From NCBI GenBank assembly GCA_017307915.1, contig JAFKGG010000373.1:8484-59352 (forward strand): 50,869 nt of DNA. The letters are read 5' to 3'. The translations under genes and the position numbers were made by a program. This stretch comes from Burkholderiales bacterium (GTDB lineage: Bacteria > Pseudomonadota > Gammaproteobacteria > Burkholderiales > Burkholderiaceae_E). Below the pieces are notes generated by a model. It was not told the origin of the DNA. It made no database searches and saw only the letters and a program-made list of their open reading frames with translations. This document shows positions 27,012 through 47,851 of the stretch, in pieces; position 1 is the stretch's first letter; every line of letters starts with the position of its first letter.

Positions 27012-27460
27012 GATGGGCGCTTGCGCATGAAGGCCGAGCGGCGGCAGATCGCCACCAGCGTGCCGTGCTGGTTGATCGCCGTGTGTTCGAACTCGACGAT
27101 GCCGGCATCGGGCCGGCTGCTGCTCACGCGCTTGGACAGCACCTTGGTGCGCGCGCGCAGCGTATCGCCGGCGAACACCGGCGCCGGAAAGCGCACGTCG
27201 CTCATGCCCAGATTGGCGATCGTCGTGCCCAGCGTGGTGTCGTTGACCGTCATGCCGATCATCAGTCCCAGCGTGAAGATGCTGTTGACCAGCGGTCGGC
27301 CGAACTCGGTGCGCGCGGCGAACTCGGCGTCGATGTGCAGCGGCTGCACGTTCATCGTCAGGCTGGAGAACAGCAGGTTGTCGGTTTCGGTGGCGGTGCG
27401 GCTCCACTCGTGCTGGAACTCGCGTCCGATCTCGAAATCTTCGTAATAAAGACCAGCCAT
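27008..27460 (-). CDS. MaoC-family hydratase
   Basis: 150 aa single hotdog. The catalytic region TETDNLLFSSLTMNVQPLHID (Asp27, His42) is the mesaconyl/methylfumaryl-type variant of the MaoC hydratase motif, with a longer Asp-His spacing than crotonyl-CoA hydratases. It would add water to an unsaturated dicarboxyl-CoA before cleavage by CitE. The ATG at 27460 follows the GntR stop with no gap; GGAGG in the end of gntR supplies the ribosome site. Confidence 0.9.
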   Translation of the reverse strand: MAGLYYEDFEIGREFQHEWSRTATETDNLLFSSLTMNVQPLHIDAEFAARTEFGRPLVNSIFTLGLMIGMTVNDTTLGTTIANLGMSDVRFPAPVFAGDTLRARTKVLSKRVSSSRPDAGIVEFEHTAINQHGTLVAICRRSAFMRKRPS

Positions 27461-33003: not shown

Positions 33004-34462
33004 GCTTGGGCCGCCCGATCGGATCCGGGCAGGTGGTTTCATACAGATGCGCGGCACCCAGCACGTTTGCATCGGCGAAGCGCGGGCCGGCGATCTGTAG
33101 TCCGACCGGCAGGCCCTCGGCGGTGAGGCCGCAGGGGATGCTGATCGCCGGTTGCTGCGTCAGGTTGAACACTGACGCGAACGGCGTCCATGCGCGCGAC
33201 TCGTTCTCCGGAAAACCTTCGGGAATCCAGCGATCGGCGGTGAATGCCGGCACCGCGCAGGTCGGCGTGAGCAGCAGCGCATAGCGGCGATGGAAATCAT
33301 GCAGCCGGCGCGCGATCGCGCGCCGCGCGTCCTGTGCCGCCAGATATTGGGCGACGCTGATCTGGGCGCCCTGCGCCACCGTGTCGCGCAGGGTCTGGCC
33401 GATGAGCTGCTTCTGCTCGTCGCTGAATCGGCTCAGGGTGTAGGCGAAGCCGGAGCGGAACAAGGTGAGGAAATCGGCCACCGGATTGTCGATGCCGGGA
33501 TCGGCCTCCTCGACGATGAAACCCAGCGACTCGAAATGACGCGCGGCGGCCTGCACCCGTTGCGCCACCTGCGGATCGACCCGCTTGGCGTAGCCCATCG
33601 TGGTGGTGAACGCGATGCGCAGGCTGCCCGGTGAGCTTTGCAGCGACGCGCGCAGATCGTCGAGCGTGTCGGCGTAGCGGATGCCGGCCGGCGGCAGCAT
33701 CTCGGGGTCGCGCAGGTCGGTCTGCGCCATCACGTCGGCCATCAAGGCTGCATCGCGCACCGAGCGGGCAATGGCGCCCGGTGACGACAGCGTGCCGGCG
33801 ACATTCGGCGGATAGGTCGGAAAGCGCCCGCCGGTCGGTTTGAAGCCGACGACGCCGCACAGCGAGGCCGGGATGCGGGTGGAGCCGCCGGCGTCGGTCG
33901 CGAGTGCGGCTGTGCCGATGCCGGCAGCCGTTGCCGCGGCAGCGCCGCCGCTGGAGCCGCCGGAGTTCTTCGTGGTGTCCCAGGGATTGCGCGTGATGCC
34001 GGTCAGCGGGCTGATCGTGACCGGGCCCGAGCCGAACTCCGGCGTCGTGGTGATGCCCAGCAGTACCGCGCCGCTGCCCAGCACGTGATCGACGACCGGC
34101 GCGCTTTCCTGCATCGGCGCATCGCTGGTGGCCAGCGAGCCTCGGCGGAACGGACAGCCGCGCACCATCAAGGTGTCTTTCACCGTCACCGGTATGCCGT
34201 CGAGCGGGCCGGCGGGCGTGCCGGCGCGCCAGCGCTTCTCGGATTCGCGCGCTTCATGGGCGGCCCGTTCGGCGGTGAGGTGGGCGAAGGCATTGAGCGA
34301 GGGGTTGTATCGCTCGATGCGCCGCAATGCCTCGTCGACGGCTTGCACCGGCGACACGCTGCCGGCGCGATAGCCGCGCAGCAGCTCATCGATCGAGAGA
34401 TAGGCAAGCGAGTCGCTCGCGCCGGCGCCGTTGGGCTCAGGGTTCTTGACGGAGTTGCTCAA
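32996..34462 (-). CDS. Amidase-signature family amidase
   Basis: 488 aa. The Ser-cisSer-Lys triad is visible: Lys95 in VTVKD, cis-Ser170 in NSGGSSGG, and nucleophile Ser194 in DAGGSTRIP. It hydrolyses a carboxamide to an acid and ammonia. The only usable start upstream of conserved sequence is TTG at 34462, with a poor ribosome site. Divergent from the importer/oxygenase train across 361 bp and convergent with iclR. It could release ammonia from a ring-cleavage amide or from an amide form of the substrate; both are inference. Confidence 0.9.
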   Translation of the reverse strand: MSNSVKNPEPNGAGASDSLAYLSIDELLRGYRAGSVSPVQAVDEALRRIERYNPSLNAFAHLTAERAAHEARESEKRWRAGTPAGPLDGIPVTVKDTLMVRGCPFRRGSLATSDAPMQESAPVVDHVLGSGAVLLGITTTPEFGSGPVTISPLTGITRNPWDTTKNSGGSSGGAAAATAAGIGTAALATDAGGSTRIPASLCGVVGFKPTGGRFPTYPPNVAGTLSSPGAIARSVRDAALMADVMAQTDLRDPEMLPPAGIRYADTLDDLRASLQSSPGSLRIAFTTTMGYAKRVDPQVAQRVQAAARHFESLGFIVEEADPGIDNPVADFLTLFRSGFAYTLSRFSDEQKQLIGQTLRDTVAQGAQISVAQYLAAQDARRAIARRLHDFHRRYALLLTPTCAVPAFTADRWIPEGFPENESRAWTPFASVFNLTQQPAISIPCGLTAEGLPVGLQIAGPRFADANVLGAAHLYETTCPDPIGRPKLT

Positions 34463-34756: not shown

Positions 34757-34772
34757 CTTGATCCACATCAAG
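34757..34772. promoter_or_regulatory. Perfect FNR-type box (CTTGATCCACATCAAG)
   Basis: TTGAT-N4-ATCAA at 34758-34771 is an exact match to the FNR/ANR consensus and extends to a 16-bp perfect palindrome. It is centred about 60 bp before the livH start codon. No clear -10 follows at the class II distance, so both activation and repression are open. It implies control by oxygen or redox state. Confidence 0.6.
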
Positions 34773-34823
34773 ATAGGTCGCTTCAAGCGGGCTCTTCGGC
34801 CCGGTAGAGATACGGGAGAGCCT

Positions 34824-35696
34824 ATGGGCTTTGCGCTACAGGTGCTGTTCGATTCGCTGCTGCTCGGCGGCCTGCTGGCCGTGGGGGCCTTGGGCTTCTC
34901 GCTCGTGTGGGGCGTGCTCAACGTGCTGAACCTCAGCTATGCCGCCTTCATCATGCTGGGCGGCTACGTCGGTTTCGGCCTGTGGTCATTGGGAATCGAC
35001 TACCTGCTGACGATTCCGTTGACGATGCTGATCATGTTCGCGATCGGCTGGCTGATGCAGCGCTACGTGATCGACTTCGTCGTCAACGGGCCGCATGCGC
35101 TGGGCATCGCGCTGACCTACGGCGTCAACCTGGCGCTGGTGGGCCTGGCCCTGTATCTGTTCACGGCGGTCGATCGCAGCATCTTCACGCCCGCCTACCT
35201 GGACGGCTACTGGGAAATCGCCGGTGCCAAGCTGCCCTACGCGCGTGGCATCACCGTGCTGATCGCGCTCGTGCTTACCGGCGCCGCCTGGTGGTTCTTC
35301 GATCGCACCGAGCTCGGCACCTCGATCCGCGCCACGCGTCTCGACATGGAGGCGGCCCGGCTGATCGGTATCAACGTTCGCAATATCTATGACCTGACGA
35401 CGGCACTGGCCGCCGCGATGGCAGGCGCCATGGGCGTATTGATCGCGCTCACTTACGGCGTCTCGCCGATCACCGGCGATCAGTTCCTGCTGCAGATCCT
35501 GATCGTCACGGTGCTGGGCGGCCTGGGCAGCGTGGTCGGTCCACTGGTGGGCGCTTTTCTGGTCGGCATCGCCACGGCCTTGACTGCGAACCTGTTCGGT
35601 TCGACGTACAGCCTGCTGGTCGGAACGGTATTGGTGCTGATCATGCTGATGACACGTCCGTCCGGCCTGTTCGGCAAGCGTTTCTACGAAGCTTGA
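34824..35696 (+). CDS. livH: Branched-chain-type ABC transporter permease LivH (operon 2)
   Basis: 290 aa inner-membrane permease. The N-terminus LFDSLLLGGLLAVGALGFSLVWGVLNVLNLSYAAFIMLGGY is a LivH signature; the ATPase-docking loop is at LGTSIRATRLDMEAARLIGI and the end is MTRPSGLFGKRF. The ATG at 34824 follows GGGAGAG by three bases; the frame opens earlier at a TTG at 34758, which lies inside the FNR-type box and is rejected. It is the first gene of the 13-kb train. Specificity is expected to follow the catabolic genes downstream. Confidence 0.93.
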   Translation: MGFALQVLFDSLLLGGLLAVGALGFSLVWGVLNVLNLSYAAFIMLGGYVGFGLWSLGIDYLLTIPLTMLIMFAIGWLMQRYVIDFVVNGPHALGIALTYGVNLALVGLALYLFTAVDRSIFTPAYLDGYWEIAGAKLPYARGITVLIALVLTGAAWWFFDRTELGTSIRATRLDMEAARLIGINVRNIYDLTTALAAAMAGAMGVLIALTYGVSPITGDQFLLQILIVTVLGGLGSVVGPLVGAFLVGIATALTANLFGSTYSLLVGTVLVLIMLMTRPSGLFGKRFYEA

Positions 35697-35715
35697 GCAC
35701 AAGGAGCCGGGTTTG

Positions 35716-36777
35716 ATGAGCGGACAGATCGTCAACGATCCGCCGGTGCCTGCCACCAAGGCTGCACACCAGCATGGCGGCAGCGCGCGCGGACTGCTGC
35801 GCGGCTATGGCGCGCTGCTGATTGCGGCGCTGATCGCCGCCTGTGCGCCGCTATTGGTGCTGGATTCCTATTCGCAGCGCGTGGTCGCCACCGCATTCAT
35901 GTACCTGGCCCTGGCGCAGGCCTGGAATCTGATCGGCGGCTATGCCGGCCTGATGTCGCTGGCGATGCCGGCGTTCTTCGGCACCGGCGCAATGCTCACC
36001 GCTGCCCTGGTGGTCGGCGGCATGTCGCCGCTGCTGGCGGTGGGCTGTGGCATCTTGGCCGCGCTGCTGGTCGCGGCGCTGGTGGGCGGGCCGACCCTGC
36101 GTTTGCAGGGGCACTACTTCGTGGTCGCGACGCTGCTCATCACGGAAGCCCTGCGCAACGCGGTGCTGAACATCAATGCCTTCGGCTTTTCGGGCAGCAC
36201 CACCCTCAATCTGTTCAATGCGACCGCGCTGGGCCAGCTCGATGCGCCGCAGTTCAACCTGTTCTTCTATTTCGTGATGCTGGCGCTGGCGCTGGGCGCG
36301 ATGATCATCGTGGCGGCGTTCGAGCGCTCGCGCACCGGCTACGCGCTCAGATCGATCCGCGACAACGAACGCGCCGCGCGGGCACTGGGCGTTGCCGTGG
36401 CGCGGCAGAAGATGCTGGTGTTCCTGGTCAGCGCCGGCATGACGGCCCTGGTCGGCGCGGCCTGGGCGTTCTGGCTCGGCGCCGTCGATACGAACGAGGC
36501 TTTCGGCTTTCGCCTGTCCTTCGACGTGATCGTGATGGTGTTCCTCGGCGGGCGTGGTTCGCTGTGGGGGCCGGTGGCCGGCGTCGCGGTGCTGACGGCG
36601 GTTCACGAAACGATCGGCGTGAGCTTTCCCGAACTGCACATGGTGATATCGGGTGTGCTGGTTGCGCTGATCGTGCTGTTCCAGCCCGACGGCATCGCCA
36701 GCGCGATGCGTGACGGCCTGCGCGCCTTCGCTCCGGCCAGATTGCGCGCCAACCTGCTTCGCTATCGGGTGAAATGA
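35716..36777 (+). CDS. livM: Branched-chain-type ABC transporter permease LivM (operon 2)
   Basis: 353 aa permease, the partner of LivH. Typical segments are LALAQAWNLIGGYAGLMSLAMPAFFGTGAM, the docking loop RSRTGYALRSIRDNERAARALGVAV, and GGRGSLWGPVAGVAVL. AAGGAG lies nine bases before the ATG at 35716; the TTG three bases earlier is less likely. The end overlaps livG as ATGA. Confidence 0.93.
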   Translation: MSGQIVNDPPVPATKAAHQHGGSARGLLRGYGALLIAALIAACAPLLVLDSYSQRVVATAFMYLALAQAWNLIGGYAGLMSLAMPAFFGTGAMLTAALVVGGMSPLLAVGCGILAALLVAALVGGPTLRLQGHYFVVATLLITEALRNAVLNINAFGFSGSTTLNLFNATALGQLDAPQFNLFFYFVMLALALGAMIIVAAFERSRTGYALRSIRDNERAARALGVAVARQKMLVFLVSAGMTALVGAAWAFWLGAVDTNEAFGFRLSFDVIVMVFLGGRGSLWGPVAGVAVLTAVHETIGVSFPELHMVISGVLVALIVLFQPDGIASAMRDGLRAFAPARLRANLLRYRVK

Positions 36778-37586
36778 AGATGGCGTTGCTCGAAGTACGC
36801 GGCTTGAGTAAGCGCTTCGGCGGCCTGCGCGCCGTCGACGGTGTCGATCTGCACGTCGAACGCGGCGAGGTGGTCGGCTTGATCGGCCCGAATGGCGCGG
36901 GCAAGAGCACGCTGGTCGAGTTGTTGACCGGCGGCCAGCAGGCAAGCTCGGGCTCCATCCGGTTCGACGGGCGCGACATCACCCGATTGTCGAATCATGA
37001 GCGTTGCCGGCTGGGCCTGGCGCGCACCTTCCAGGTGCCTCAGCCGTTCGCGGGCGGCACGGTGCTCGAGAACGTGATGGTCGGTGCGCTGTTCGGCAGC
37101 CAGACGCGCACGCTGTCGATCGAGCAGGCGCGCGACCTGGCCGCGCGCACGCTGCAATCGACCGGGCTGGGCGAGCTGTGCGATCGCGCGCCGACCTCGT
37201 TGACCACCGCGGGCCTGAAGCGCCTGGAACTGGCGCGCTGTCTGGCAACGGGCGCGCAGATGGTGTTTCTCGATGAACCGCTGGGCGGCCTGAACCCCAC
37301 CGAAGTGAATGAAGCCATCGAGCTGATCAGGCAGGTGGGCAAGTCGGGCACCACCATCCTGTTCATCGAACACATCGTGCCCGCGGTGCTGTCGCTGTGC
37401 CAGCGAGTCGTGGTGCTGGCCAACGGACGCAAGCTCGCCGAGGGCAGCGGCGAGGAGGTCACGCAGAACCCGCTGGTGCGCAAGGCGTATCTCGGCGACG
37501 TATCGAGCGCTGCCGATCGCTATAGCCGCAAGGGATCGCGCGGCGCAGGCAATCAGCAACCCGTCGCGGAGCGCAGCAATGACTGA
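36774..37586 (+). CDS. livG: Branched-chain-type ABC transporter ATP-binding protein LivG (operon 2)
   Basis: 270 aa ATPase. Walker A GPNGAGKST, GLARTFQVPQPF, a divergent signature TTAGLKRLELARCLA in place of LSGGQ, Walker B MVFLDEPLGGLNP and switch His in FIEHI. The signature change (TTAGLKR) is at the edge of what LivG proteins show. It overlaps livM by four bases and livF by eight, so it is translationally coupled on both sides. Confidence 0.92.
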   Translation: MKMALLEVRGLSKRFGGLRAVDGVDLHVERGEVVGLIGPNGAGKSTLVELLTGGQQASSGSIRFDGRDITRLSNHERCRLGLARTFQVPQPFAGGTVLENVMVGALFGSQTRTLSIEQARDLAARTLQSTGLGELCDRAPTSLTTAGLKRLELARCLATGAQMVFLDEPLGGLNPTEVNEAIELIRQVGKSGTTILFIEHIVPAVLSLCQRVVVLANGRKLAEGSGEEVTQNPLVRKAYLGDVSSAADRYSRKGSRGAGNQQPVAERSND

Positions 37587-38298
37587 GCTGCTGCAGATCG
37601 AGAACCTCGATGCCGGCTACGGCAGCATCCAGGTATTGCGCGACGTCAGCTTGTCGGTGCGAGCGGGCGAGATTCTCGCGGTGGTCGGCGCCAATGGCGC
37701 CGGCAAAAGTACCTTGCTGCGCACCATTTCCGGTCTGATCGCTCCCACGCGCGGGCAGATCCGCTTCGCCGGCCGCGATATCGCTGGCCGTTCCAGCGCC
37801 GAGATCGTCGGATTGGGCCTGACGCAGGCGCCGGAAGGACGCCGCTGCTTCAGCGGCCTGTCGGTGGAGGCGAATCTGCGCCTGGGTGCGCTGCGCCGAC
37901 CCGACAAGAGCAGCGCCGTGATCGATGCCGGCCTCGAACAGGTCTACGGATATTTCCCGCGCTTGCGCGAGCGGCGCAATCAGCTCGCCGGCACCTTGTC
38001 CGGCGGCGAGCAGCAGATGTGCGCGATCGGCCGTGCGCTGATGGCGCAGCCCAAGCTGCTGATCATCGACGAACTATCGCTGGGGCTCGCGCCGATCATC
38101 GTCGCGGAGCTGCTTCACATTCTCGAAGCCATCCACGAATCGGGCTGCACGATCGTGCTGGTGGAGCAGGACATCTCGGTGGCGCTCAACTTCTCCGATC
38201 GCGCCGTGGTGATGCAGTCAGGCCGCGTCGTGCTGACCGGGGACGCCATGTCCCTGCGCTCGGACGACGACATTGTCAGAACCTACCTCGGAGGCTAA
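37579..38298 (+). CDS. livF: Branched-chain-type ABC transporter ATP-binding protein LivF (operon 2)
   Basis: 239 aa ATPase. Walker A GANGAGKSTLLR, TQAPEGRRCFSGLSVEANL, signature LSGGEQQM, Walker B LLIIDELSLGLAP (Glu-Leu instead of Glu-Pro) and VEQDI. Standard LivF length, without the basic tail seen in operon 1 LivF. It ends three bp before the substrate-binding protein gene. Confidence 0.93.
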   Translation: MTELLQIENLDAGYGSIQVLRDVSLSVRAGEILAVVGANGAGKSTLLRTISGLIAPTRGQIRFAGRDIAGRSSAEIVGLGLTQAPEGRRCFSGLSVEANLRLGALRRPDKSSAVIDAGLEQVYGYFPRLRERRNQLAGTLSGGEQQMCAIGRALMAQPKLLIIDELSLGLAPIIVAELLHILEAIHESGCTIVLVEQDISVALNFSDRAVVMQSGRVVLTGDAMSLRSDDDIVRTYLGG

Positions 38299-38301
38299 TC
38301 G

Positions 38302-39546
38302 ATGAAATCTCTCAAGAACGAGCGGCGCGATGCAGTCAAGATGCTGGGCGCGGGCGTGGTGGCGGCCTCCGGCGTACTGCCGGCCCGCAGGGCGGTTGCC
38401 CAGGCACCGGTGCTCACGGTTGCCTCGATCCTGCCTTTGAGCGGCGGCTTCGCGCAGTACGGACAGGAACTTGCGCGTGGCGTCGATCTGGCGGTGGAGG
38501 CGATCAACAAGAAGGGCGTGAAGGTCGGCAACACCGTCTACCAGCTCAAGCTCAACACTTACGACGACAAGACCGACGCCACCACCACCGCGCGCCTGAC
38601 CGAGCGCGCGATGACCGCCGACAACGCCGACATCGCGATCGCCGGCTGCGGCAGCGTGATGGCCAAGTCGGTGATTCCGGTGGCGCAGCGCCTGCGCATG
38701 CCGGTGCTCGCGCAATGGGCACAGGTCGACGGCGTATTCGCCGGCCAGAAGGGCAATCCGTATTTCTTCGGCACCATGCCGCCGTTCAGCAAGATGTACG
38801 ACAACATCTGGCCGCAGGTGGCGAAGTTCAATTCACCGAAGGTGCAGACCGTGGTAATGGTCACGCCCAACGACGAGCTGGGCGTGTTCATGGCGCGCGA
38901 TCTGCCGGCCAAGCTCGCGCAGGCCGGCCTGAAGCATCTGCACACCGAGATGTTTCCGCCGACCAGCCAGGATTTCAGCGCAACGCTGGAACGGTGTTCG
39001 CGCCACAATCCCGACATCTTCCTGATCAATTGCTATACGCCGCAGATCATCGCGGTATTCAAGCAGATGCAGGCGGTGAAGTTCTTTCCGCCCACGGTCA
39101 TCGTCGAGGCGCCGAGCCGGCTGTTCGAGTCGATCGGCCCGGGCATCAACGGCGCGTTCGTGCCCAGCTTCTGGGCGCCGCATCTGGTCGGCACCCGCGA
39201 CGAATACGTCGGCACCAGCACCGACTTCGCGGCCGCCTACCAGGCCAAGTTCAAGGAGGCGCCGCCGGATTTCGTCGCCGCCTGCGGCGCTGCGAATCTC
39301 GTCGTCTATGCGCAGGCCATCGCGCGCACCGGCAACGTCAAGGACAAGAACGCGCTGCTCAATACGCTGCGCAAGTTCGACGGCGAAACCTTCTTCTCGG
39401 CCACGCGCTACGGCGACGATGGCCTGAATCTGAAGGCACCGATCTTCGGCGCGCAATTCCAGGACGGCAAGGTCAAGCTGGTCTATCCGGAAAACGTGCG
39501 CGAGCAGCCGCCCGTGCACCCCTATCCCGGTTGGAAGAAAGCTTAG
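38302..39546 (+). CDS. Periplasmic substrate-binding protein of Liv-type ABC transporter (operon 2)
   Basis: 414 aa. The signal region NERRDAVKMLGAGVVAASGVLPARRAVAQA has a twin-arginine-like RRDAVK before a mild hydrophobic stretch, so Tat export is possible. The mature domain is a type 1 periplasmic fold: VASILPLSGGFAQYGQELARGVDLAVEAIN, then the TTARLTERAMTADNADIAIAGCGS hinge side and a PTSQDFSATLERC motif. GGAGG precedes the ATG. The ligand is unknown; position before the oxygenase genes points to an aromatic or heteroaromatic acid. Confidence 0.92.
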   Translation: MKSLKNERRDAVKMLGAGVVAASGVLPARRAVAQAPVLTVASILPLSGGFAQYGQELARGVDLAVEAINKKGVKVGNTVYQLKLNTYDDKTDATTTARLTERAMTADNADIAIAGCGSVMAKSVIPVAQRLRMPVLAQWAQVDGVFAGQKGNPYFFGTMPPFSKMYDNIWPQVAKFNSPKVQTVVMVTPNDELGVFMARDLPAKLAQAGLKHLHTEMFPPTSQDFSATLERCSRHNPDIFLINCYTPQIIAVFKQMQAVKFFPPTVIVEAPSRLFESIGPGINGAFVPSFWAPHLVGTRDEYVGTSTDFAAAYQAKFKEAPPDFVAACGAANLVVYAQAIARTGNVKDKNALLNTLRKFDGETFFSATRYGDDGLNLKAPIFGAQFQDGKVKLVYPENVREQPPVHPYPGWKKA

Positions 39547-39553
39547 GTCAGTC

Positions 39554-39589
39554 GGCTCGCGCGTATCGCATCGGCGGTACGCATGAGCC
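39554..39589. other. Hairpin between binding-protein gene and Rieske oxygenase gene
   Basis: GGCTC-gc-GCGTA pairs with TACGC-at-GAGCC around a 12-base loop: ten pairs with a 2x2 internal loop. No T-run. It could separate expression of the importer genes from the catabolic genes, as the hairpins after the first binding-protein gene may do. Confidence 0.45.
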
Positions 39590-39614
39590 CGAACTATGAG
39601 GTTTGAAGAAAGAA

Positions 39615-40760
39615 ATGTCGAACATGAGCGAAGCATCGAGCGGATTTGAGCCGCTGCGCAAGACGCTGAGCGAGGCGGCGCATGCGCCGGGTCTGGTCTA
39701 CGGCTCGGAAGACGCATTGCGTCGCGAGATCGACGAGTACTTCATGAAGGACTGGCTGTACGTCGGTCGTGAAGAGGAACTCGCCAAGCCCGGCGACTAC
39801 CTGACCATGCGAATCGTCGGTGAGCCCGTGCTGATCTCGCGCGACACCGATGGCACGCTGAATGCCTGCGTGAACATGTGCGCGCATCGCGGCGTCGAAG
39901 TCGCCTACGGGGAAGGCAATACGCGTGCCTTCAAATGCCCCTACCACGGCTGGACCTACGATCTGAAAGGGCGGCTGAAGGGCGCGGCCCACATGGACAG
40001 CAGCGAGGGCTTCGACCCCGCCAGCTGCCGCCTGCCGCCGCTGCGGCTCGACACCTGGCGCGGCAACATCTTCATCTGCTTTTCGCAGGACACGCGGCCG
40101 CTGCTCGAATACCTGAGTGAATACGAGAAAGACTTCGCGTTTCTGCAAATGGAGAATTGCAGGCTCGGCAACAAGATCGAGCTCGAGCTGAACTGCAATT
40201 GGAAGCTGGTGCACGAGAACCTGATGGATTTCTATCATGTGAACGTGCTGCACGCGAAGTCGTTTGGTGCCCGCTTTTCCTGGAACAACGACGGCGTGGT
40301 TCTGAAAGACAATGGCAGCCTGTCGATCTGGTACAAGGCGGGCCCGCCGACGCCGGGCGGCGAGCCTTTGCTCGGCAAGATGCCGTGGCTGGAAGACCGC
40401 GACTACAGCTTCGCCTGCAAGGGCTTCATGCCGCCGAACTTCACGCTCTTCGGCCGCATCGATTGCGTGCGCCCGATGGTCGTATGGCCGACCGGGGTCG
40501 ACAAGTGCCGCGCCCTGATCTATCACCTGTTTCCGAAAGAGGTGTTCGAGCGCCCGGACATCGAGGAAAAGCTGAAGATCTATCGCGACTATCAGCTGCT
40601 GGTGCTCGGCGAAGACCGGATCATGATCGAGTCACTGCAAAAGGCCATGGTGTCGCGCAACTTCGTGCCCGGGCGCATGTCGGTGCTGGAAAAACCGATC
40701 CACCATTTCCTGAACCGGCACGTCGCGCGCATCTACGGCGAGGGCCAGGCGCATGAGTGA
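39615..40760 (+). CDS. Rieske non-heme iron oxygenase, alpha subunit
   Basis: 381 aa. The Rieske cluster ligands are Cys89-x-His91 and Cys108-x2-His111 (CAH and CPYHGW). The bridging Asp205 with Fe ligands His208 and His213 lie in ENLMDFYHVNVLH, and Asp334 in GEDRIMIES likely completes the triad. It hydroxylates or dihydroxylates a ring using O2 and two electrons. No dedicated beta subunit, ferredoxin or Rieske-type reductase adjoins it; the flavodoxin and flavoprotein genes at the end of the train are the candidates for electron supply. Start: the ATG at 39615 is preferred; a second ATG lies at 39624. It overlaps the next gene by eight bases. Confidence 0.92.
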   Translation: MSNMSEASSGFEPLRKTLSEAAHAPGLVYGSEDALRREIDEYFMKDWLYVGREEELAKPGDYLTMRIVGEPVLISRDTDGTLNACVNMCAHRGVEVAYGEGNTRAFKCPYHGWTYDLKGRLKGAAHMDSSEGFDPASCRLPPLRLDTWRGNIFICFSQDTRPLLEYLSEYEKDFAFLQMENCRLGNKIELELNCNWKLVHENLMDFYHVNVLHAKSFGARFSWNNDGVVLKDNGSLSIWYKAGPPTPGGEPLLGKMPWLEDRDYSFACKGFMPPNFTLFGRIDCVRPMVVWPTGVDKCRALIYHLFPKEVFERPDIEEKLKIYRDYQLLVLGEDRIMIESLQKAMVSRNFVPGRMSVLEKPIHHFLNRHVARIYGEGQAHE

Positions 40761-41793
40761 AGACGTCGCCATGCTCGATCGAGGCGCGGCGGTGATGGCC
40801 GCCGACTACCTCGCGGTGCGCAAAGGCGAGGCCGTGTTGATCACGGCCGATGCGCAGACCGATGCCCGCGCCCTGCGCGCCGTGTTCCGTGCGTTGACGG
40901 CGCTCGAGGCAGTGCCGTCGATACTGACCATTCCGACGGTGCCGTTCCAGGGGGCACTGGCCGATCCTTACGTGCCGCGCTTCGTCGAGCCCGCGGTGCT
41001 GGCGGCCGACGTCTGGATCGACCTGTGCTTTCCGTATCTGGCCGGATCGCACGTCTACGAGGTGGCGATCAAGGCTGGCAAGACGCGTTATCTGCTGGGC
41101 GCCGATCTCGGCGCCGAAGGAATCGGCAGGCTGTTCGGCGCGATGGATCTCGACGGCCATTACGCCGTGCACGAGAAGATGGAAGAGCTGATCATCGGGT
41201 CGGTCGGCAAGCGGGCGCGCATCACCTGCCCGCGCGGCACCGACGTGCTGTTCGAGATCGACAAGCCGCCTTATCGCAAGCCGCGGCGCGCCGAGAAGCC
41301 GGGGCACTATCTGGTACCCGGTTCGGCCACGCTGTTCCCGGTGCTGGAGAGCGTGCGCGGCACGATCGCTTTTACCGCGATCTTCCATGAATACTATGCG
41401 GCGGTCGAACCGGCGCTCATCGTCAAGGTCGACGGCAAGATCCGCGAAGTGCAGGGGCCGACCACGCACCGGCTCACGCTGGATCGCGCGCTGCGCCGCG
41501 CCGGCAACGGCCAGTACGGCAACATCATTCATTTCACGCACGGCATGAGCCCCACCGCGCGCGCGACCGGCCGCTCGTTCATCGAAGACTCGCGGGTCAT
41601 GGGGGTCGACGCGGTCGGCATGGGATTGCCGTGGTGGATCCCCGGCGGCGGCGAGAATCACCCCGACGGCGTGATCTCGGATCAATCGCTGTGGATCGAC
41701 GGCGAGCAGATCGTCAAGGATGGCGTTATCGTGGCGCCGTCGATCGCGCCGATCACGCACCGTCTGGCACCGCGCGTACCGCCGCCGCTCTGA
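40753..41793 (+). CDS. NicX-like ring-cleavage dioxygenase (M29 aminopeptidase-related fold)
   Basis: 346 aa. By comparison from memory with P. putida NicX (2,5-dihydroxypyridine 5,6-dioxygenase), its Fe ligands His265, His318 and Asp320 correspond here to His260 (NIIHFTHGMSPTA) and His303/Asp305 (ENHPDGVISDQ). The flanking order is the same in both, ending in a DG-x5-DGVIV-like strand. This supports a mononuclear iron dioxygenase rather than a dizinc M29 peptidase, whose ligand set is different. Overall identity to NicX looks modest, so the substrate may be another dihydroxylated N-heterocycle. Coupled by overlap to the Rieske gene. Confidence 0.75.
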   Translation: MSEDVAMLDRGAAVMAADYLAVRKGEAVLITADAQTDARALRAVFRALTALEAVPSILTIPTVPFQGALADPYVPRFVEPAVLAADVWIDLCFPYLAGSHVYEVAIKAGKTRYLLGADLGAEGIGRLFGAMDLDGHYAVHEKMEELIIGSVGKRARITCPRGTDVLFEIDKPPYRKPRRAEKPGHYLVPGSATLFPVLESVRGTIAFTAIFHEYYAAVEPALIVKVDGKIREVQGPTTHRLTLDRALRRAGNGQYGNIIHFTHGMSPTARATGRSFIEDSRVMGVDAVGMGLPWWIPGGGENHPDGVISDQSLWIDGEQIVKDGVIVAPSIAPITHRLAPRVPPPL

Positions 41794-41845
41794 ACCGGCG
41801 CGTCGGCTGCGGCGACGTCACAGGAACATCGAAGAAGGAGAGGGT

Positions 41846-42718
41846 GTGAAGCCATCGAAGTTCGAATTCCACGAGCCGCGCAGCCTGGCCGAGGCGATCG
41901 AGACGCTGGGCCGCTACGGCGAGGATGCGCGCATCCTCGCCGGCGGGCAGAGTCTGGTGCCGCTGCTGAATTTCCGGATTCTGCAGCCGCGCGCCCTGAT
42001 CAGCATCAATCATTGCCCGGAGCTCGCCTATCTGCGCGAAGACAATGGGCAGATCCAGTGCGGCGCCGGCACCCGCCAGGTCGACGCCGAACGCTCACCG
42101 GTGGTGGGCGGCCGCGTACCCTTGCTCGCCGCTGCCCTGCCATGGGTGGGCGGCATCGCCAATCGCAACCGGGGCACCGTCTGCGGCAGCCTGGCGCATG
42201 CCGATCCGCTGGCCGAGCTGCCGGCCGTCGCGCTCGCGCTCGATGCGCAGTTCCGCATCAACGGCCTGCAGGGCGCGCGCGAGGTGCCGGCGCGGGATTT
42301 CTTCATCGGTGACCTGACCACGGCGGTCGAACCGGGCGAGATGCTCGAGTCGGTAAGGTTTCCCTGTTGCGGCACGAAAGCCGGTGCGTCCTTCGTCGAG
42401 GTCGGCAATCGCGCGCACGGCTTTGCGGTGGTCGGCGTGGCTGCGCATCTGGAATTCGACGAGCGCGATCGCTGCGGCAGCGTGCGGCTGGCGGCGATCG
42501 GCGTGGGCGGCGTGCCGATTCGGCTGGAAGCCGCCGAAGCGATCCTGCTGCGCGCCGACCGCCTGCCGCAGGCGGCGGCCGAGGCCGCTGCCGTGGCGGC
42601 GTCCGGGGTCGAGCCGATGGGTGGGATTCACGCCGATGCCGAGTACAAGAAGGAGCTGCTGGCGACCCTGGTCGAGCGCGCCGTGCTGAAGGCGGCATCG
42701 GCTGCGCGAGTGAACTGA
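41846..42718 (+). CDS. Molybdenum hydroxylase, FAD-binding (medium) subunit
   Basis: 290 aa, CoxM/xanthine-dehydrogenase medium-subunit type. FAD contacts are in ILAGGQSLVPLLNFRI and NRNRGTVCGSLAHADPLAELP, with the CO_deh_flav_C domain after about residue 180. It passes electrons from the iron-sulfur subunit to an acceptor. The start is GTG at 41846 with AAGGAGAGG upstream; the frame extends to 41720 inside the previous gene only by overlap. First of three subunit genes in the order FAD, 2Fe-2S, Mo. Confidence 0.93.
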   Translation: MKPSKFEFHEPRSLAEAIETLGRYGEDARILAGGQSLVPLLNFRILQPRALISINHCPELAYLREDNGQIQCGAGTRQVDAERSPVVGGRVPLLAAALPWVGGIANRNRGTVCGSLAHADPLAELPAVALALDAQFRINGLQGAREVPARDFFIGDLTTAVEPGEMLESVRFPCCGTKAGASFVEVGNRAHGFAVVGVAAHLEFDERDRCGSVRLAAIGVGGVPIRLEAAEAILLRADRLPQAAAEAAAVAASGVEPMGGIHADAEYKKELLATLVERAVLKAASAARVN

Positions 42719-42734
42719 GATCGAGAGGACCGCG

Positions 42735-43256
42735 ATGGATGATCAGAGGAAGTTGAGCTTGCAGGTGAATGGGAAGCGCTACGAGCGCATGGCCGAGCCG
42801 CGCATGCTGCTGGCCGATTTCCTGCGCCACAAGCTGGGTCTGAAAGGTACGCACATCGGTTGCGCGCACGGCGTGTGCGGCGCGTGCACCGTGCAGATCG
42901 ACGGGCGCGCCGCGCGCAGCTGCCTGCATTTCGCGATCGACGTGCAGGATTGCGAGATCACCACCGTCGAAGGCCTGGCCGGCGACGACGCGCTGCATCC
43001 GATCCAGCAGGCCTTCCACGAATGCCATGCGTTGCAGTGCGGGTTCTGTACACCCGGTTTCCTGATGACGATCGAGGAGTTCTTGCGCGACAACCCCGAG
43101 CCGAGCGAAGCGCAGATCCGTACCGCGCTGGCCAACAACATCTGCCGGTGCACCGGCTACGCGAACATCGTGCAGGCGGTGGCCGATGCGGCGCGGCGCC
43201 TGCGCGAGCAGCCGGCGGCTGCCGCTGATGCGGGAGGATGCCATGCAGGCCAATGA
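42735..43256 (+). CDS. Molybdenum hydroxylase, [2Fe-2S] (small) subunit
   Basis: 173 aa. The N-terminal plant-type cluster has HIGCAHGVCGACTV and a further Cys in RSCLHF; the C-terminal cluster has QCGFCTPGFL and NNICRCTGY. These are the two [2Fe-2S] centres that relay electrons from molybdenum to FAD. The last 14 bases overlap the start of the large-subunit gene. A short Ala-rich tail (about 150-173) extends past the usual end. Confidence 0.95.
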   Translation: MDDQRKLSLQVNGKRYERMAEPRMLLADFLRHKLGLKGTHIGCAHGVCGACTVQIDGRAARSCLHFAIDVQDCEITTVEGLAGDDALHPIQQAFHECHALQCGFCTPGFLMTIEEFLRDNPEPSEAQIRTALANNICRCTGYANIVQAVADAARRLREQPAAAADAGGCHAGQ

Positions 43257-45624
43257 GACCGGCGGTTACATCGGAAAACGGCTGCTGCGCCGCGAAGACG
43301 AGGCGCTGCTGCGCGGCCGCGGCAGCTATGTCGACGACCTGGCCGAGCCGCAGAACCTGCTGCACCTGGCCTTCGTGATGAGCCCGCATGCGCATGCGCT
43401 GATCAAGTCGATCGACACCAGCGCCGCTCGAAGCCTGCCCGGCGTGTTCGCCGTGTACACGGGCGAGGATCTGGCGCCGCTGATGAAGCCGATCCATACC
43501 GAGATCCTGTTTCCCGGATACCAGGCTGCTGATCGCAATGCGCTGGCTTACGGCAAGGTGCGCTTCGTCGGCGAGCAGGTGGCCGTGGTGCTGGCCGAAG
43601 ACCGCTATATCGCGCAGGACGCGATCGATCTGATCGAGGTCGAGTACGAGGTGCTGCCGGCGGCGGTCGACATGGAAGAGGCGCGCAAGCCCGGCGCGCC
43701 GCTGGTGCACGATCATATCGAGCGCAACATCATTTTCGAAGGCAAGTTCGAGACGCCGGAGTTCGAACGCGAGTTCGCCGCCGGCGAGCATCGGATTCGC
43801 GAGCGCTTTCGCACCGGCCGCGTCGCGGGCGTGCCGATGGAGCCGCGCGGCTGCCTGGCGCTGCCCGAACACAGCGACGCCATCGTCTTTCATACCTCCA
43901 CGCAGATCCAGCATCTGGTGCGCGAAGGGCTCGCGCATCATCTGGGCCGTTCGGAGGCCAGCATTCGCGTGGTCGTGCCCGACGTCGGCGGCGGCTTCGG
44001 CACCAAAGCGCAGCTCTATCCGGAAGAGGTGGTTGCGGCCGCGCTGTGCTTCAAGCTGCGCCGGCCGATCAAATGGGTCCAGGATCGCCGCGAAGAGCTG
44101 CTCACCAACATTCATGCGCGCGACCACCTGTACGACCTGGAAGTCTCGTTCTCCAGCGACGGTGTCATTCGCGGCATGCAGCTCGAGCTGCTGACCAATG
44201 CCGGTGCCTATTCGACTTATCCGTTCGGTTGCACGTTGGAAACCACCGGCGGTTCGCGGATGATTCTCGGGCCGTACCGCATCCGCAACTATATGTACCG
44301 CAGCTTCTCGATCGCCACGCATACCAACCCGGCCGGCGTGTATCGGGGCGTGGCGCAGCCGTCGTGCATGATGGCGATGGAGGGCATGCTCGACCGCATC
44401 GGCCGCTACCTCGGCATCGATCCTGCCGAAGTGCGCCGGCGCAACGTGGTGCAAGCCTCCGACATGCCGTGGACCACGGCGGTCGGCGTGCGTTTCGATA
44501 CCGGCAGCTACCAGCAGTGCCTGGACAAGGCGCTGGAGGCGATCGGCTACGACGAGTTCCGCCGCGCGCAGCCGCGCGACCGGCTGGTCGACGGCAAGTA
44601 TCGCGGCGTCGGCATCTGCAACATGACCGAATTCACCGGCATGGGGGCCCCTGCCTGGCGTTCGCGCGGCCTGAAGCGGATGTCGGGCATCGACAGCGCG
44701 GCACTGCGGGTCGAGGCCACCGGCAAGGTCACCGTGTCGATCAGCCATGCGGCGGCCGGCCAGGGGCATCTGACCACCTTTGCGCAGATCGTGGCGGACT
44801 ACCTGGGCGCGAACATCGAAGACGTGCGGATCATCGAAGGCGACACTGCCGTTTCGCCGTACGGCACCAATACCTTCGCGAGCCGCAGCGCCGTCACCGG
44901 CGGGGGCGCGGTGATCCGCGCTTCGACCAAGGTTGCCGACAAGATCCGGCGGATCGCCGCCCATGTGCTCGAGGCATCGCCGCAGGACATCGTGGTGCGC
45001 GACGGCTACGCTCACGTCGCCGGCGTCACCGATCTGCGGCTGAGTTTTCGCGAGGTGGCCGAGATCGCCTACGCGATGTGCGACGTCAGTCTGCCCGAAG
45101 GCGAAGATTTCGGTCTCGAAGCCTCGGAATACTACGACCCGCCGGTGGTGACGGTGGCGAATGCCGCGCATGTGGTGGCGGTGACCGTCGATGCCCGCGA
45201 CGGCCGCGTCACCATCGACCGGCATGTGGTCGTTCATGACTGCGGCCGGGTGATCAATCCGATGATCGTCGACGGCCAGATTCATGGCGGGGCAGCGCAA
45301 GGCATCGGTGAAGCCTTGATGGAAGAGATGGTCTACGACGAGAACGGCCAGTTGCTCAACGCGAGCCTGCTCGATTATCTTCTGCCTACCGCAATGGACA
45401 TTCCGAACTTCGAGATCTCGCATATCGAGACGCCGACCATCGACGGCCTGGGCGGTTTCAAGGGAGTGGGCGAGGGCGGCTTGATCGGCGCGCTGCCGGC
45501 GGTGGTCAATGCGGTGGCCGATGCGCTGTCGGGCATCGGCGTCAACGTCAATCGCGTGCCGATGCGTCCGGCTTATCTGCGCTCGCTGATCCGTTCGGCG
45601 GCGGCTGAAGGTGGTGCGCGGTGA
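43243..45624 (+). CDS. Molybdenum hydroxylase, molybdopterin-binding (large) subunit
   Basis: 793 aa. Seen: GKRLLRREDEALLRGRGSYVDDL at the start, VPDVGGGFGTKAQLYPEEV, the active-site segment GVYRGVAQPS (about 365-373), QGHLTTFAQIVAD, and catalytic Glu744 in FKGVGEGG. The CO-dehydrogenase AYRCSFR loop is absent, so this is a hydroxylase that inserts water-derived oxygen next to a ring nitrogen or aldehyde. The VYRGVAQ form departs from the common AYRGAGRPE, hinting at an unusual substrate. The ATG at 43243 follows GGGAGG; an earlier in-frame ATG at 43228 is less well placed. Confidence 0.93.
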   Translation: MQANETGGYIGKRLLRREDEALLRGRGSYVDDLAEPQNLLHLAFVMSPHAHALIKSIDTSAARSLPGVFAVYTGEDLAPLMKPIHTEILFPGYQAADRNALAYGKVRFVGEQVAVVLAEDRYIAQDAIDLIEVEYEVLPAAVDMEEARKPGAPLVHDHIERNIIFEGKFETPEFEREFAAGEHRIRERFRTGRVAGVPMEPRGCLALPEHSDAIVFHTSTQIQHLVREGLAHHLGRSEASIRVVVPDVGGGFGTKAQLYPEEVVAAALCFKLRRPIKWVQDRREELLTNIHARDHLYDLEVSFSSDGVIRGMQLELLTNAGAYSTYPFGCTLETTGGSRMILGPYRIRNYMYRSFSIATHTNPAGVYRGVAQPSCMMAMEGMLDRIGRYLGIDPAEVRRRNVVQASDMPWTTAVGVRFDTGSYQQCLDKALEAIGYDEFRRAQPRDRLVDGKYRGVGICNMTEFTGMGAPAWRSRGLKRMSGIDSAALRVEATGKVTVSISHAAAGQGHLTTFAQIVADYLGANIEDVRIIEGDTAVSPYGTNTFASRSAVTGGGAVIRASTKVADKIRRIAAHVLEASPQDIVVRDGYAHVAGVTDLRLSFREVAEIAYAMCDVSLPEGEDFGLEASEYYDPPVVTVANAAHVVAVTVDARDGRVTIDRHVVVHDCGRVINPMIVDGQIHGGAAQGIGEALMEEMVYDENGQLLNASLLDYLLPTAMDIPNFEISHIETPTIDGLGGFKGVGEGGLIGALPAVVNAVADALSGIGVNVNRVPMRPAYLRSLIRSAAAEGGAR

Positions 45625-45712
45625 GCGTTCGATCGGCTGCAATCGATCGGTATTTAGATGGGCCGGATTGTGCCCGCGGCAACGAAGCTGTGCTTGAAGG
45701 GATACGACGATC

Positions 45713-46171
45713 GTGCAACTGAACAATGAACATCATCTGGAAGCATCGCGGGCCAAGGTCTGGGAGGCGCTGAACGACCTGGAAACATTGAAGGCCTCGA
45801 TCCCGGGCTGCGAGCAGATGGAACGGATCGACGAACGCACGCTGCGCGCCGTCGTCAAATCGCGCGTCGGGCCGGTGAGCGCGCGCTTCACCGGCACGGT
45901 CGCGTTCTCCGATATCGAGCCGATGTGCGGCTATACGATCACCTTCAAGGGCGAAGGCGGCATGGCCGGTTTCGCAAGCGGCAATGCGCGCGTCGATCTG
46001 AGCGACGACGGCGACGGCACGCTGTTGCGCTATGAGTCGAAGGCGCAGGTCGGCGGCAAGCTGGCTCAGATCGGCTCGCGTCTGATCGACAGCGTCGCGA
46101 GCAAGACGGCAAGCGAGTTCTTCCAGCGCTTCGCCGCTGTCGTCTCACAGGATCAGGCGAAGGCCGATTGA
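45713..46171 (+). CDS. coxG: CoxG-like SRPBCC protein
   Basis: 152 aa. Matches the CoxG family: LNNEHHLEASRAKVWEALNDLETLKASIPGCEQM, VKSRVGPVSARFTGTV, and GGKLAQIGSRLIDSVA. These proteins accompany molybdenum hydroxylases of the CO-dehydrogenase family and are thought to help membrane attachment or cofactor delivery. The start is GTG at 45713 with AAGGGA 12 bases upstream. The 88-bp gap before it has an inverted CGATCG-N8-CGATCG. Confidence 0.9.
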   Translation: MQLNNEHHLEASRAKVWEALNDLETLKASIPGCEQMERIDERTLRAVVKSRVGPVSARFTGTVAFSDIEPMCGYTITFKGEGGMAGFASGNARVDLSDDGDGTLLRYESKAQVGGKLAQIGSRLIDSVASKTASEFFQRFAAVVSQDQAKAD

Positions 46172-46194
46172 GCCGCAGCGGGAATGCGCAAACG

Positions 46195-46659
46195 ATGAAG
46201 GTGACCTTGCTGGTGGTGACCATGACGGGTACGGCTGAAATGATCGCGGAAGATCTGGTCGCGGCCTTCTCGAAAGAACACGAGCTGACGATGGTGCTCG
46301 CCGAACGCACGCAGCCCGAGCTGTTCGATGGCACGCAGCATCTGGTGGTGGTGAGCAGTACTTATGGAGAGGGCGAAGTGCCCGACCCCGGCAAGCCGCT
46401 GTATGAGGGGTTGCGCCGCAAGGACGGCGAGCTCAAGGGGCTGCGCTATGGCGTCGTCTCGCTGGGCGACAGCATCTACAAGGAGACCTTCGCCAACGGC
46501 GGCCGGCTCTGGGACGCGCTGCTGGCCGAACGCGGCGCGACGCGGCTCGCCGAGACGCTGCTTCTCGATGCCTCGGGCAGCGCCGACATGTCGGCGCTCG
46601 CGGTCGACTGGTTCGGCGCCTGGCTGCGCACGGCGGCACAGGCCGAGACGACCGCTTGA
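46195..46659 (+). CDS. Flavodoxin
   Basis: 154 aa, short-chain flavodoxin/MioC-like. The FMN phosphate loop is TMTGTA (residues 9-14) and the isoalloxazine loops are SSTYGEGEVPDPG and GDSIYKETFANGG. A one-electron carrier. The frame begins at a TTG overlapping the coxG stop, but the ATG at 46195 with GGGAA upstream fits the fold. Followed 19 bp later by a ferredoxin-reductase-like flavoprotein, which together form a natural NADPH-to-flavodoxin chain. Confidence 0.9.
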   Translation: MKVTLLVVTMTGTAEMIAEDLVAAFSKEHELTMVLAERTQPELFDGTQHLVVVSSTYGEGEVPDPGKPLYEGLRRKDGELKGLRYGVVSLGDSIYKETFANGGRLWDALLAERGATRLAETLLLDASGSADMSALAVDWFGAWLRTAAQAETTA

Positions 46660-46678
46660 CGGCAGGCGCGCTGCGCCT

Positions 46679-47851
46679 ATGGTGATTGCCATCGTAGGCA
46701 GCGGGCCGGCCGGCTTCTACTGCGCCGATTTCCTGACCCGTGCCTTGCCCGACGCGCAGGTGCACGTCTTTGAGCGCCTGCCCCAGCCTTACGGCCTGCT
46801 GCGCTACGGCGTGGCGCCTGACCATGCCGGTACGCGCGGCCTCAGCCGTCTGTTCGATCGCATCGCGCGGCGTGCGAACCTGCGTTGCTTCGCCAACGTG
46901 GGGGTCGGCGCCGATATCGCGTTCGAGGATCTACGCGTGGCCTACGACGCGGTGATCCTGGCCACCGGGGCTGCGTGCGGGGCGAAGGCAATCTCCTCGG
47001 ATCCCGACCTGCCCTCTTCGTCATCGATCACCGCATTCGATCTGCTGCGCTGCTTCAACGGCCATCCCGACGCGGATGCCCGGCAATTGCCGGGCCGCAC
47101 GCAGGCTGCGTGCATCATCGGCCACGGCAATGTCGCCCTCGACGTGGCGCGCCTGCTGGCGCACCCGAGTGAAACGCTGGCGCGTTGCGGCGTTCCCCGG
47201 GCGGTCGTCGAGTGGCATGCGGGCCTGGGTTTGCAGGAGATCCATCTGTGCGGTCGCGGCCATGCGGGTAACACGCGCTTTTCCGCCGCCGGCCTGGAAG
47301 AACTGGAAAACGTTGATGGTTTGCGGCGGCTGGTGGATCCGGCCGATGTTTCGATGGCAGAGGGAAGCAATCTGCCGGCCTTGGAGGTGCTGCGCCGCTG
47401 GGCAGGCCACGGCGGCGGCGCCGATTCCGGGCCCGGCATGGCGATTCGCTGGCATTTCGAGTGCGCGCCGCTGCGTCATCGCGATCGGGTGCTGGTGGTC
47501 CGCGATCCCTCGCGGGGCATGCGCGAGATCGCGGCCGATGTGCTGATCCATGCAGTCGGCCAGCGGCCCGCGGTGATGCCGGGCGTTCCGGTCGATCCGC
47601 AGACCGGGGCCGTCGCGCATCGCAACGGCAGGGTCGATGGGATGCCGGGCACCTACGTCGTGGGCTGGGCGGCCGGTGGCCGCAACGAATCGATCGCGGG
47701 CAGCCGCGCTGCCGCCGGGGCACTGGCTGAGGTCGTCATCGCCGATTTGCGGCAACGCTCTGTGCTGCTCGATGGGCGTGCGGCCGAGCGCCTCATCCTG
47801 AGCTGCGGGCTCGGCTCGCCGGATCGGGAACCGCCGGCTGAGAACGGCTGA
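46679..47851 (+). CDS. Adrenodoxin-reductase-type NADPH:ferredoxin/flavodoxin reductase
   Basis: 390 aa. FAD motif VGSGPAGFYCADFL, PQPYGLLRYGVAPDH (adrenodoxin reductase/FprA hallmark), NADPH motif GHGNVALDVARLL, and a C-terminal YVVGWAAGGRNESIAGSRA. It is shorter than FprA (about 450 aa), with a compressed middle. It should reduce the flavodoxin encoded next door. Last gene of the train. The weak ribosome site suggests coupling or low expression. Confidence 0.88.
   Translation: MVIAIVGSGPAGFYCADFLTRALPDAQVHVFERLPQPYGLLRYGVAPDHAGTRGLSRLFDRIARRANLRCFANVGVGADIAFEDLRVAYDAVILATGAACGAKAISSDPDLPSSSSITAFDLLRCFNGHPDADARQLPGRTQAACIIGHGNVALDVARLLAHPSETLARCGVPRAVVEWHAGLGLQEIHLCGRGHAGNTRFSAAGLEELENVDGLRRLVDPADVSMAEGSNLPALEVLRRWAGHGGGADSGPGMAIRWHFECAPLRHRDRVLVVRDPSRGMREIAADVLIHAVGQRPAVMPGVPVDPQTGAVAHRNGRVDGMPGTYVVGWAAGGRNESIAGSRAAAGALAEVVIADLRQRSVLLDGRAAERLILSCGLGSPDREPPAENG

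Follow-up and report, generated by a model that had tools for sequence, protein, structure and literature searches.

How would a bacterium open a nitrogen-containing aromatic ring with the products of a single operon in which genes for a molybdenum hydroxylase, a Rieske oxygenase and a divergent relative of the ring-cleaving dioxygenase NicX are accompanied by a flavodoxin gene? The question is raised by a 50,869-nucleotide stretch of DNA from a Burkholderiales bacterium, hereafter the window, which is part of contig C143 of a 6.1-Mb host genome assembled in 521 contigs. Thirteen genes, all on the plus strand, span positions 34758–47851 of the window. Judged from sequence, they are best read as an accessory operon for the catabolism of an N-heteroaromatic compound, combining import, hydroxylations, NicX-like ring cleavage and a Rieske enzyme fed by a flavodoxin; we give this reading a probability of about 55%. 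The substrate is probably a pyridine- or quinoline-type compound carrying an acid or amide group.

The NicX-like gene (40753–41793, plus strand) encodes a divergent candidate non-heme iron dioxygenase. Its product has no match in Pfam or NCBIfam at E ≤ 0.001 and none in the Protein Data Bank (PDB) by phmmer at E ≤ 1, and a profile of eight family rows likewise missed NicX, including entry 7cn3. Profile–profile comparison of the eight family rows with three rows of true NicX by hhalign gives a match of 98.2% (E 6e-14), and the window protein is 24% identical by blastp to a true NicX orthologue from its own genome. On account of these two matches the protein is regarded as a homologue of NicX.

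The iron ligands of NicX are His265, Ser302, His318 and Asp320, and the substrate contacts include Glu177 and His189, as given in an excerpt of PMC7910607. All six residues are retained in the three true NicX sequences aligned. In a full-length alignment of ten NicX-like members (the window and loci L005, L006, L007, L011, L012, L025, L026, L064 and L065), the triad His265/His318/Asp320 is retained in every member and corresponds to H260, H303 and D305 of the window protein. The position of Ser302 is occupied by glycine in an eight-member alignment and falls in a gap in the ten-member one, with serine in neither. Position 177 holds lysine or arginine in seven of the ten members and alanine in three, and none has histidine at position 189. 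Position 105 is uninformative, being histidine in NicX yet phenylalanine in three local true NicX sequences. The window protein is thus predicted to belong to a rare NicX-class family with a plain 2-His-1-Asp iron site that lacks the Ser302 ligand and the Glu177/His189 pair.

The rarity of the family is apparent at several taxonomic levels. Within the taxonomic family of the host, a NicX-like match occurs in one of 74 genomes, the host genome itself. The genome samples overlap, and those of the order, the class, the phylum and a second family of the same order were scored for at most five candidates per genome, so that copies could be missed: there are matches of any kind in 3 of 399 genomes of the order, in 6 of 369 of the class (profile search) and in 2 of 398 of the phylum, each time with full-length close copies in the host genome only, and in 5 of 398 of the second family, two full-length and three with split fragments. 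A limited scan of genome contigs found NicX-like copies in three metagenome-assembled genomes (MAGs) of Candidatus Binatia. Thirteen plasmid records match; those of Variovorax sp. SRS16 and Agrobacterium sp. T29 are full-length at 47–48% identity, seven others are at 22–29%, and four from Cupriavidus carry a fragment. In Cupriavidus-type genomes and plasmids (L015, L027, L066) the gene survives only as a short remnant with a split frame. The host genome contains three NicX-like copies, located in the window and on contigs C187 and C337, and a further NicX-type protein is encoded on contig C156.

A related Rieske oxygenase gene adjoins the NicX-like gene or lies one gene away from it at seven of the ten loci (the window, L005, L006, L007, L011, L012 and L025), which count as five lineages since the Binatia copies L005–L007 are near-identical. 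In an alignment of seven, these Rieske oxygenases are 40–50% identical to that of the window. At the remaining three loci no Rieske gene was hit and a NicC-type class A flavin adenine dinucleotide (FAD) monooxygenase is present instead: it forms a pair with the NicX-like gene in L064 (8706–10980) and L065 (6852–9118) and is located about 7 kb away in L026. Loci L064 and L065 are near-identical, and the NicC-type loci therefore count as two lineages; the term NicC-type denotes class and context with orthology unproven, the best models (3-hydroxybenzoate 6-monooxygenase and similar) scoring below cut-off. Because the Rieske neighbour at seven of the loci is replaced by a NicC-type enzyme at the other three, the Rieske oxygenase probably performs the pre-cleavage hydroxylation, and this pattern of neighbours is the chief support for ring cleavage after hydroxylation. 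An earlier note on this DNA had proposed that a molybdenum hydroxylase, a Rieske oxygenase and a NicX-class enzyme act in this order on an N-heteroaromatic compound, and that order is the best reading. Chance adjacency of the Rieske and NicX-like genes was rejected, as both Burkholderiales-type genomes and Binatia MAGs show the pairing.

Possible N-formyl hydrolases are encoded in the same gene run at four of the ten loci. Three are alpha/beta hydrolases (L011, L025, L026; 38–50% mutual identity), and the fourth is a peptide-deformylase-like protein in L012, where genes for a Rieske oxygenase, a Fer2 reductase, the NicX-like enzyme and the deformylase-like protein follow in a row (3026–6859). 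In the nicotinate route the N-formyl group is removed by NicD. It is possible that the peptide-deformylase-like protein is a deformylase from an unexpected family that acts on an N-formyl product. In the Binatia, genes for HpaB-type and luciferase-like monooxygenases precede the Rieske/NicX-like pair of L006, and L005, L006 and L007 all have a further Rieske gene and a gene of the amidase family downstream.

Because it is named by no family model, the NicX-like protein could also be a hydrolase or another aminopeptidase-like metal enzyme, in an operon whose Rieske enzyme oxidises an aromatic or betaine-type compound. Some of the plasmid relatives at 22–29% identity are annotated as aminopeptidases, and GbcA and CntA, the closest models of the window Rieske enzyme, act on quaternary amines. 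However, the iron triad is invariant among the ten members, whereas glutamate replaces its first histidine in the more distant relatives L028 and L020, and the family accompanies ring hydroxylases of two unrelated types. A hydrolase is distinctly improbable on this evidence.

The window Rieske oxygenase (39603–40760, plus strand) is a putative single-subunit, alpha-only non-heme iron enzyme. Both Pfam domains are present (Rieske 3.2e-20, Ring_hydroxyl_A 6.4e-25), and the alignment of seven contains the CxH/CxxH, D..H....H and distal ED motifs, which have established roles in Rieske oxygenases. The closest models are GbcA and the closest solved chain is CntA (PDB 6y9c, 4.3e-32); NF058607 matches at 3.3e-37, below its cut-off. 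A Pfam scan of the operon genes found no beta-subunit gene.

The only candidate redox partners for this enzyme in the operon are a short-chain flavodoxin of the MioC/cindoxin type (46195–46659, plus strand; Flavodoxin_1 8.4e-23; PDB 2m6r flavodoxin 5.9e-22 and, second best, 4oxx cindoxin 1.1e-15) and an FprA/adrenodoxin reductase-type reductase (46679–47851, plus strand; Pyr_redox_2; PDB 1lqt FprA 3.1e-47, 1cjc adrenodoxin reductase 6.9e-40). The operon has no gene for a ferredoxin or a Fer2 reductase, its sole Fer2 protein being the small subunit of the molybdenum hydroxylase. The reductase is 30% identical over 362 amino acids to that encoded beside a flavodoxin–cytochrome P450 (P450) in Gordonia KTR9, which we take to be XplB.

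Eleven plasmid flavodoxin loci from overlapping lists of 27 and 22 records were inspected, with unequal flanks of 3–11 kb and two extra upstream stretches. A Rieske oxygenase is encoded within the stretch at five of them, in Pseudosulfitobacter, Paracoccus and Nitratireductor in one operon type and in Pseudooceanicola and Palleronia in another. Three loci have a P450 (R. pyridinivorans, Klebsiella grimontii and Gordonia KTR9), and the other three (L037, L047, L049) have neither among the features listed in the plasmid gene tables, which are incomplete; in L037 no FprA-type gene adjoins the flavodoxin gene. Locus L039, outside the eleven, is an FprA-type locus without a flavodoxin that encodes ferredoxins and a P450. 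The Rieske lineages near flavodoxins are distantly alike, with 20–27% identity over parts of their length. Five plasmids carry the flavodoxin/FprA-type pair in the vicinity of unrelated Rieske oxygenases, which suggests that the pair may feed Rieske enzymes. The alphaproteobacterial plasmid operon (L040/L036, L041/L038 and L044) encodes a Rieske oxygenase, an SDR, a hydrolase, a VOC protein, a thiamine diphosphate enzyme, an aspartate dehydrogenase, an aldehyde dehydrogenase, the FprA-type reductase and the flavodoxin.

The remaining genes of the operon, all on the plus strand, encode the importer and the molybdenum hydroxylase. The five genes at its 5′ end specify a Liv-type ATP-binding cassette (ABC) system composed of a livH-type permease (34758–35696; BPD_transp_2 2.8e-37), a livM-type permease (35713–36777; BPD_transp_2 5.9e-37), a livG-type ATPase (36774–37586; ABC_tran 5.7e-27, BCA_ABC_TP_C 4e-08), a livF-type ATPase (37579–38298; ABC_tran 2.4e-28) and a periplasmic binding protein (38302–39546; Peripla_BP_6 3.8e-43). 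The molybdenum hydroxylase, of the xanthine oxidase family by Pfam, is complete, with an FAD or medium subunit (41846–42718; FAD_binding_5 4.4e-43, CO_deh_flav_C 3.2e-14), a [2Fe-2S] or small subunit (42735–43256; Fer2 and Fer2_2, the latter at 6.1e-33) and a QorL-like molybdopterin or large subunit (43243–45624; MoCoBD_1/2; PDB 1t3q 3.1e-176). It is followed by a CoxG-type accessory protein (45713–46171; COXG 2.1e-31). The Pfam, PDB and hhalign matches bear out the gene identities put forward in the earlier note for the importer, the molybdenum hydroxylase, CoxG, the Rieske and NicX-like enzymes, the flavodoxin and the reductase.

The same holds for its description of thirteen same-strand genes with several overlaps: with the start codons chosen, the intergenic gaps are 16, −4, −8, 3, 56, −8, 52, 16, −14, 88, 23 and 19 nt from 5′ to 3′, where negative values are overlaps and 88 nt is the widest gap. 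The layout bears on whether a single pathway is encoded. The Rieske and NicX-like enzymes could form one pathway with the importer, and the molybdenum hydroxylase and CoxG could form, with the flavodoxin and the reductase, a separate module that happens to be packed on the same strand. The gaps of 52 and 88 nt lie between these modules, which are not found together at the nine other NicX-like loci, and the surrounding extra segment has other catabolic genes. By contrast, the strand is unbroken with short gaps and overlaps, terminator-like sites on both strands are not in excess (5 observed, 7.6 expected), and in the nic and pic routes NicX-class enzymes work together with molybdenum hydroxylases. 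We consider independent modules unlikely.

An amidase-signature hydrolase gene (32996–34462, minus strand) is divergent from the operon, as had been noticed before (Pfam Amidase 3.3e-96; NCBIfam NF004815 540.4 bits against a cut-off of 506); an action of its product on a ring-opened amide is plausible. Convergent with it is an IclR-family gene (32125–33003, plus strand; IclR_C 1.4e-15, HTH_IclR 8.2e-14; the PcaR/PobR-like model TIGR02431 1.2e-23, below cut-off), which is absent from the earlier note and encodes a candidate regulator.

The operon is carried on an accessory segment of about 25 kb (22985–47930), which is absent between the flanking genes in all five congeners inspected of the 17 searched. 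With flank matches restricted to identity above 45%, the flanking genes, for an acyl-CoA dehydrogenase and for a TetR protein or a carboxylase, are separated by about 40 to 3350 bp in these five congeners, against about 25 kb in the window. The acyl-CoA dehydrogenase is 79–88% identical in 15 of the 17 congeners, and the contig is therefore native to the genus. The segment was either inserted as accessory DNA or lost elsewhere as a block. Comparison of the short congener intervals with the island by tblastx gave short pieces only, with no convincing common protein among the matches listed, and no integrase was recognised among the open reading frames (ORFs) of the segment tested. At the left end of the segment, a HigB-type toxin gene (23215–23523) is followed by a likely antitoxin gene (23543–23920) without a Pfam match. 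A second small catabolic block on the minus strand (23926–28249) encodes a TctC binding protein, a class III CoA-transferase, a MaoC/mesaconyl-CoA hydratase-like protein and a GntR regulator.

The following route can be proposed for an N-heteroaromatic substrate. The Liv-type system would import the compound, and the divergent amidase may take off an amide. The QorL-like molybdenum hydroxylase, matured by CoxG, would add a hydroxyl group derived from water beside the ring nitrogen. The alpha-only Rieske oxygenase would add a second hydroxyl group, a step apparently performed in sister loci by a NicC-type flavin enzyme, with electrons passing from reduced nicotinamide adenine dinucleotide phosphate (NADPH) through the FprA-type reductase and the flavodoxin to the Rieske centre. 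The NicX-like enzyme would then use O2 to cleave the ring bearing the two hydroxyl groups, giving an N-formyl-type product. This product would be deformylated and deaminated by enzymes from outside the operon, for which pic- and nic-like genes on host contig C134, or the amidase, are candidates. It is a more tentative proposal, and on balance a doubtful one, that the Rieske enzyme is fed, without any iron–sulfur carrier, by a flavin mononucleotide flavodoxin and an FprA-type reductase of the kind found in P450 chains, and is coupled to a NicX-class enzyme that lacks the serine ligand and acts on a carboxylated N-heterocycle, opening a ring other than that of 2,5-dihydroxypyridine. In its boldest form, the flavodoxin would also take up the electrons released by the molybdenum hydroxylase, so that the Rieske step would run on electrons from the first oxidation.

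PicA of the picolinate (pic) route is a molybdenum enzyme. The route proceeds from the PicA dehydrogenase through the PicB monooxygenase, the 3,6-dihydroxypicolinate decarboxylase PicC and the 2,5-dihydroxypyridine dioxygenase PicD to PicE, PicF and PicG, according to an excerpt of PMC10142695, and part of another paper groups the hydroxypicolinate 3-monooxygenase of the cluster with the Rieske alpha subunits TphA2, NagG and AndAc (PMC9060491, citing Qiu et al. 2019). As far as these excerpts go, the route already joins a dehydrogenase, a Rieske enzyme and a NicX-type enzyme, and the claim of the earlier note that a Rieske enzyme between a molybdenum hydroxylase and NicX is undescribed is not supported. 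Literature leads on homarine and dipicolinate yielded nothing usable. The equality of enzyme classes would also fit an ordinary pic- or nic-type pathway with diverged genes, in which picolinate, nicotinate or nicotinamide is degraded through 2,5-dihydroxypyridine. Lower-pathway candidates (an isochorismatase, an Amdase-type protein and an alpha/beta hydrolase) are encoded on contig C134, where pic-like and nic-like gene sets are located side by side (L013, 2–17723). The pic-like order is an AndAc-like Rieske alpha subunit cut by the contig end, a beta subunit, an amidohydrolase, the Amdase-type protein, a NicX orthologue and the isochorismatase; there follow a MarR regulator, an FAD monooxygenase, molybdenum hydroxylase genes flanking a second NicX orthologue, and a TRAP transporter. 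However, these two true NicX orthologues (L013:10050–11105 and L013:3348–4391, matching PDB 7cn3 at 7.1e-118 and 3e-121) mean that the host already has such enzymes together with pic- and nic-like genes. The window enzyme is without Glu177, His189 and Ser302, the window Rieske gene has no adjoining beta-subunit gene and is closest to GbcA/CntA, and the Pfam scan of the operon genes found no PicC-type decarboxylase. None of PicC, PicE, PicF and PicG was identified in the ORFs tested from the operon and the island. A conventional pathway of this kind seems to us improbable.

Several observations weigh against an accessory operon that cleaves an N-heterocycle with a flavodoxin-fed Rieske enzyme. 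An AlphaFold model from four rows (window and L005–L007) had a poor mean predicted local distance difference test score of 49 and was discarded. Because the residues with which NicX binds 2,5-dihydroxypyridine are not conserved, this compound may not be the ring substrate. No gene of the operon was recognised as encoding a deformylase or maleamate amidase. The alpha/beta hydrolases of the sister loci have no match at E ≤ 1e-4 to the hydrolase at the NicD position of the nicotinate-like cluster of SRS16, and their deformylase role is therefore a guess. The earlier note had called for a synteny search with the complete Rieske–NicX–molybdenum hydroxylase set, of which only the Rieske/NicX-like pairing recurs: neither a molybdenum hydroxylase nor a Liv importer is present in the same operon at any of the nine other loci (stretches of 16–25 kb, some of them close to contig ends), and this linkage therefore rests on a single genome. 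In SRS16, molybdenum hydroxylase subunit genes are located about 11 kb from the NicX-like gene, inside the nicotinate-like cluster. The electron supply is affected as well. The Rieske genes of Pseudooceanicola and Palleronia run opposite to the redox pair, and in Pseudooceanicola a Rieske ferredoxin is encoded next to the oxygenase, both of which weaken the case from these two plasmids. The window Rieske enzyme could receive its electrons in trans from the Fer2-type reductase encoded next to the NicX-like copy on C337 (L012). Outside the family, its closest relatives (37% identity) are Rieske enzymes from plasmids of Paraburkholderia and Acidovorax, which are accompanied by a ferredoxin and an FAD reductase. 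The Rieske enzyme CAO formed no product when supplied with the flavodoxin and reductase of Escherichia coli, according to part of one report (PMC9615114), and in the matches listed from a 2025 review the named partners are ferredoxins or reductases, with flavodoxin in the reference list only (PMC12445004). No native flavodoxin-fed Rieske system is among the matches listed for the Rieske and flavodoxin literature, a scope that excludes most subscription papers.

If the proposed cleavage of an N-heterocycle is correct, the NicX class, a small group of iron enzymes that cleave rings, would gain a second branch whose iron site is simpler and whose pocket differs. The question of flavodoxins versus iron–sulfur carriers as drivers of Rieske enzymes would become directly testable in candidate lineages, two unrelated ones represented by the window and by the operon of Pseudosulfitobacter, Paracoccus and Nitratireductor, and a weaker third by Pseudooceanicola and Palleronia. 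The Rieske and NicC-type enzymes beside the same ring-cleavage family would provide a natural comparison of two ways to perform one step.

Four known systems resemble parts of the operon. The window protein shares His265/His318/Asp320 and profile-level homology with NicX (PDB 7cn3, 7cnt, 7cup), the 2,5-dihydroxypyridine 5,6-dioxygenase whose product is N-formylmaleamate; however, the Ser302 ligand, Glu177 and His189 of NicX are absent from it, and 7cn3 is not matched by direct sequence search. Quinoline 2-oxidoreductase (QorMSL, PDB 1t3q) is the closest solved relative of the large subunit of the molybdenum hydroxylase, a likeness of sequence only (E 3.1e-176), and the quinoline route is not known to include a NicX. 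The P450 chains, in which electrons pass from NADPH through cindoxin reductase and cindoxin to P450cin (PMC9687028) or XplB serves as the flavodoxin reductase of XplA (PMC8081977), have in the excerpts of these papers genes for a flavin mononucleotide flavodoxin and a dedicated FAD reductase as in the window; the oxygenase in the window operon is a Rieske enzyme and not a P450. The pic cluster of Alcaligenes faecalis JQ135 and Bordetella bronchiseptica RB50 has, as partly described, the same logic of dehydrogenase, Rieske enzyme and NicX-type enzyme, and its molybdenum-type dehydrogenase is matched in class by the medium, small and large subunit genes of the window. By contrast, the pic Rieske enzyme belongs to the AndAc/TphA2 cluster and has a beta subunit, whereas that of the window is alpha-only and GbcA/CntA-like, and the window has a NicX relative of about 24% identity, a flavodoxin/FprA-type donor and a Liv importer. 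The general plan is already known from picolinate degradation, with novelty that looks confined to the ring-opening family and the flavodoxin electron supply, and the predicted window version is set apart by its Rieske clade, ring-cleavage family, electron chain and importer.

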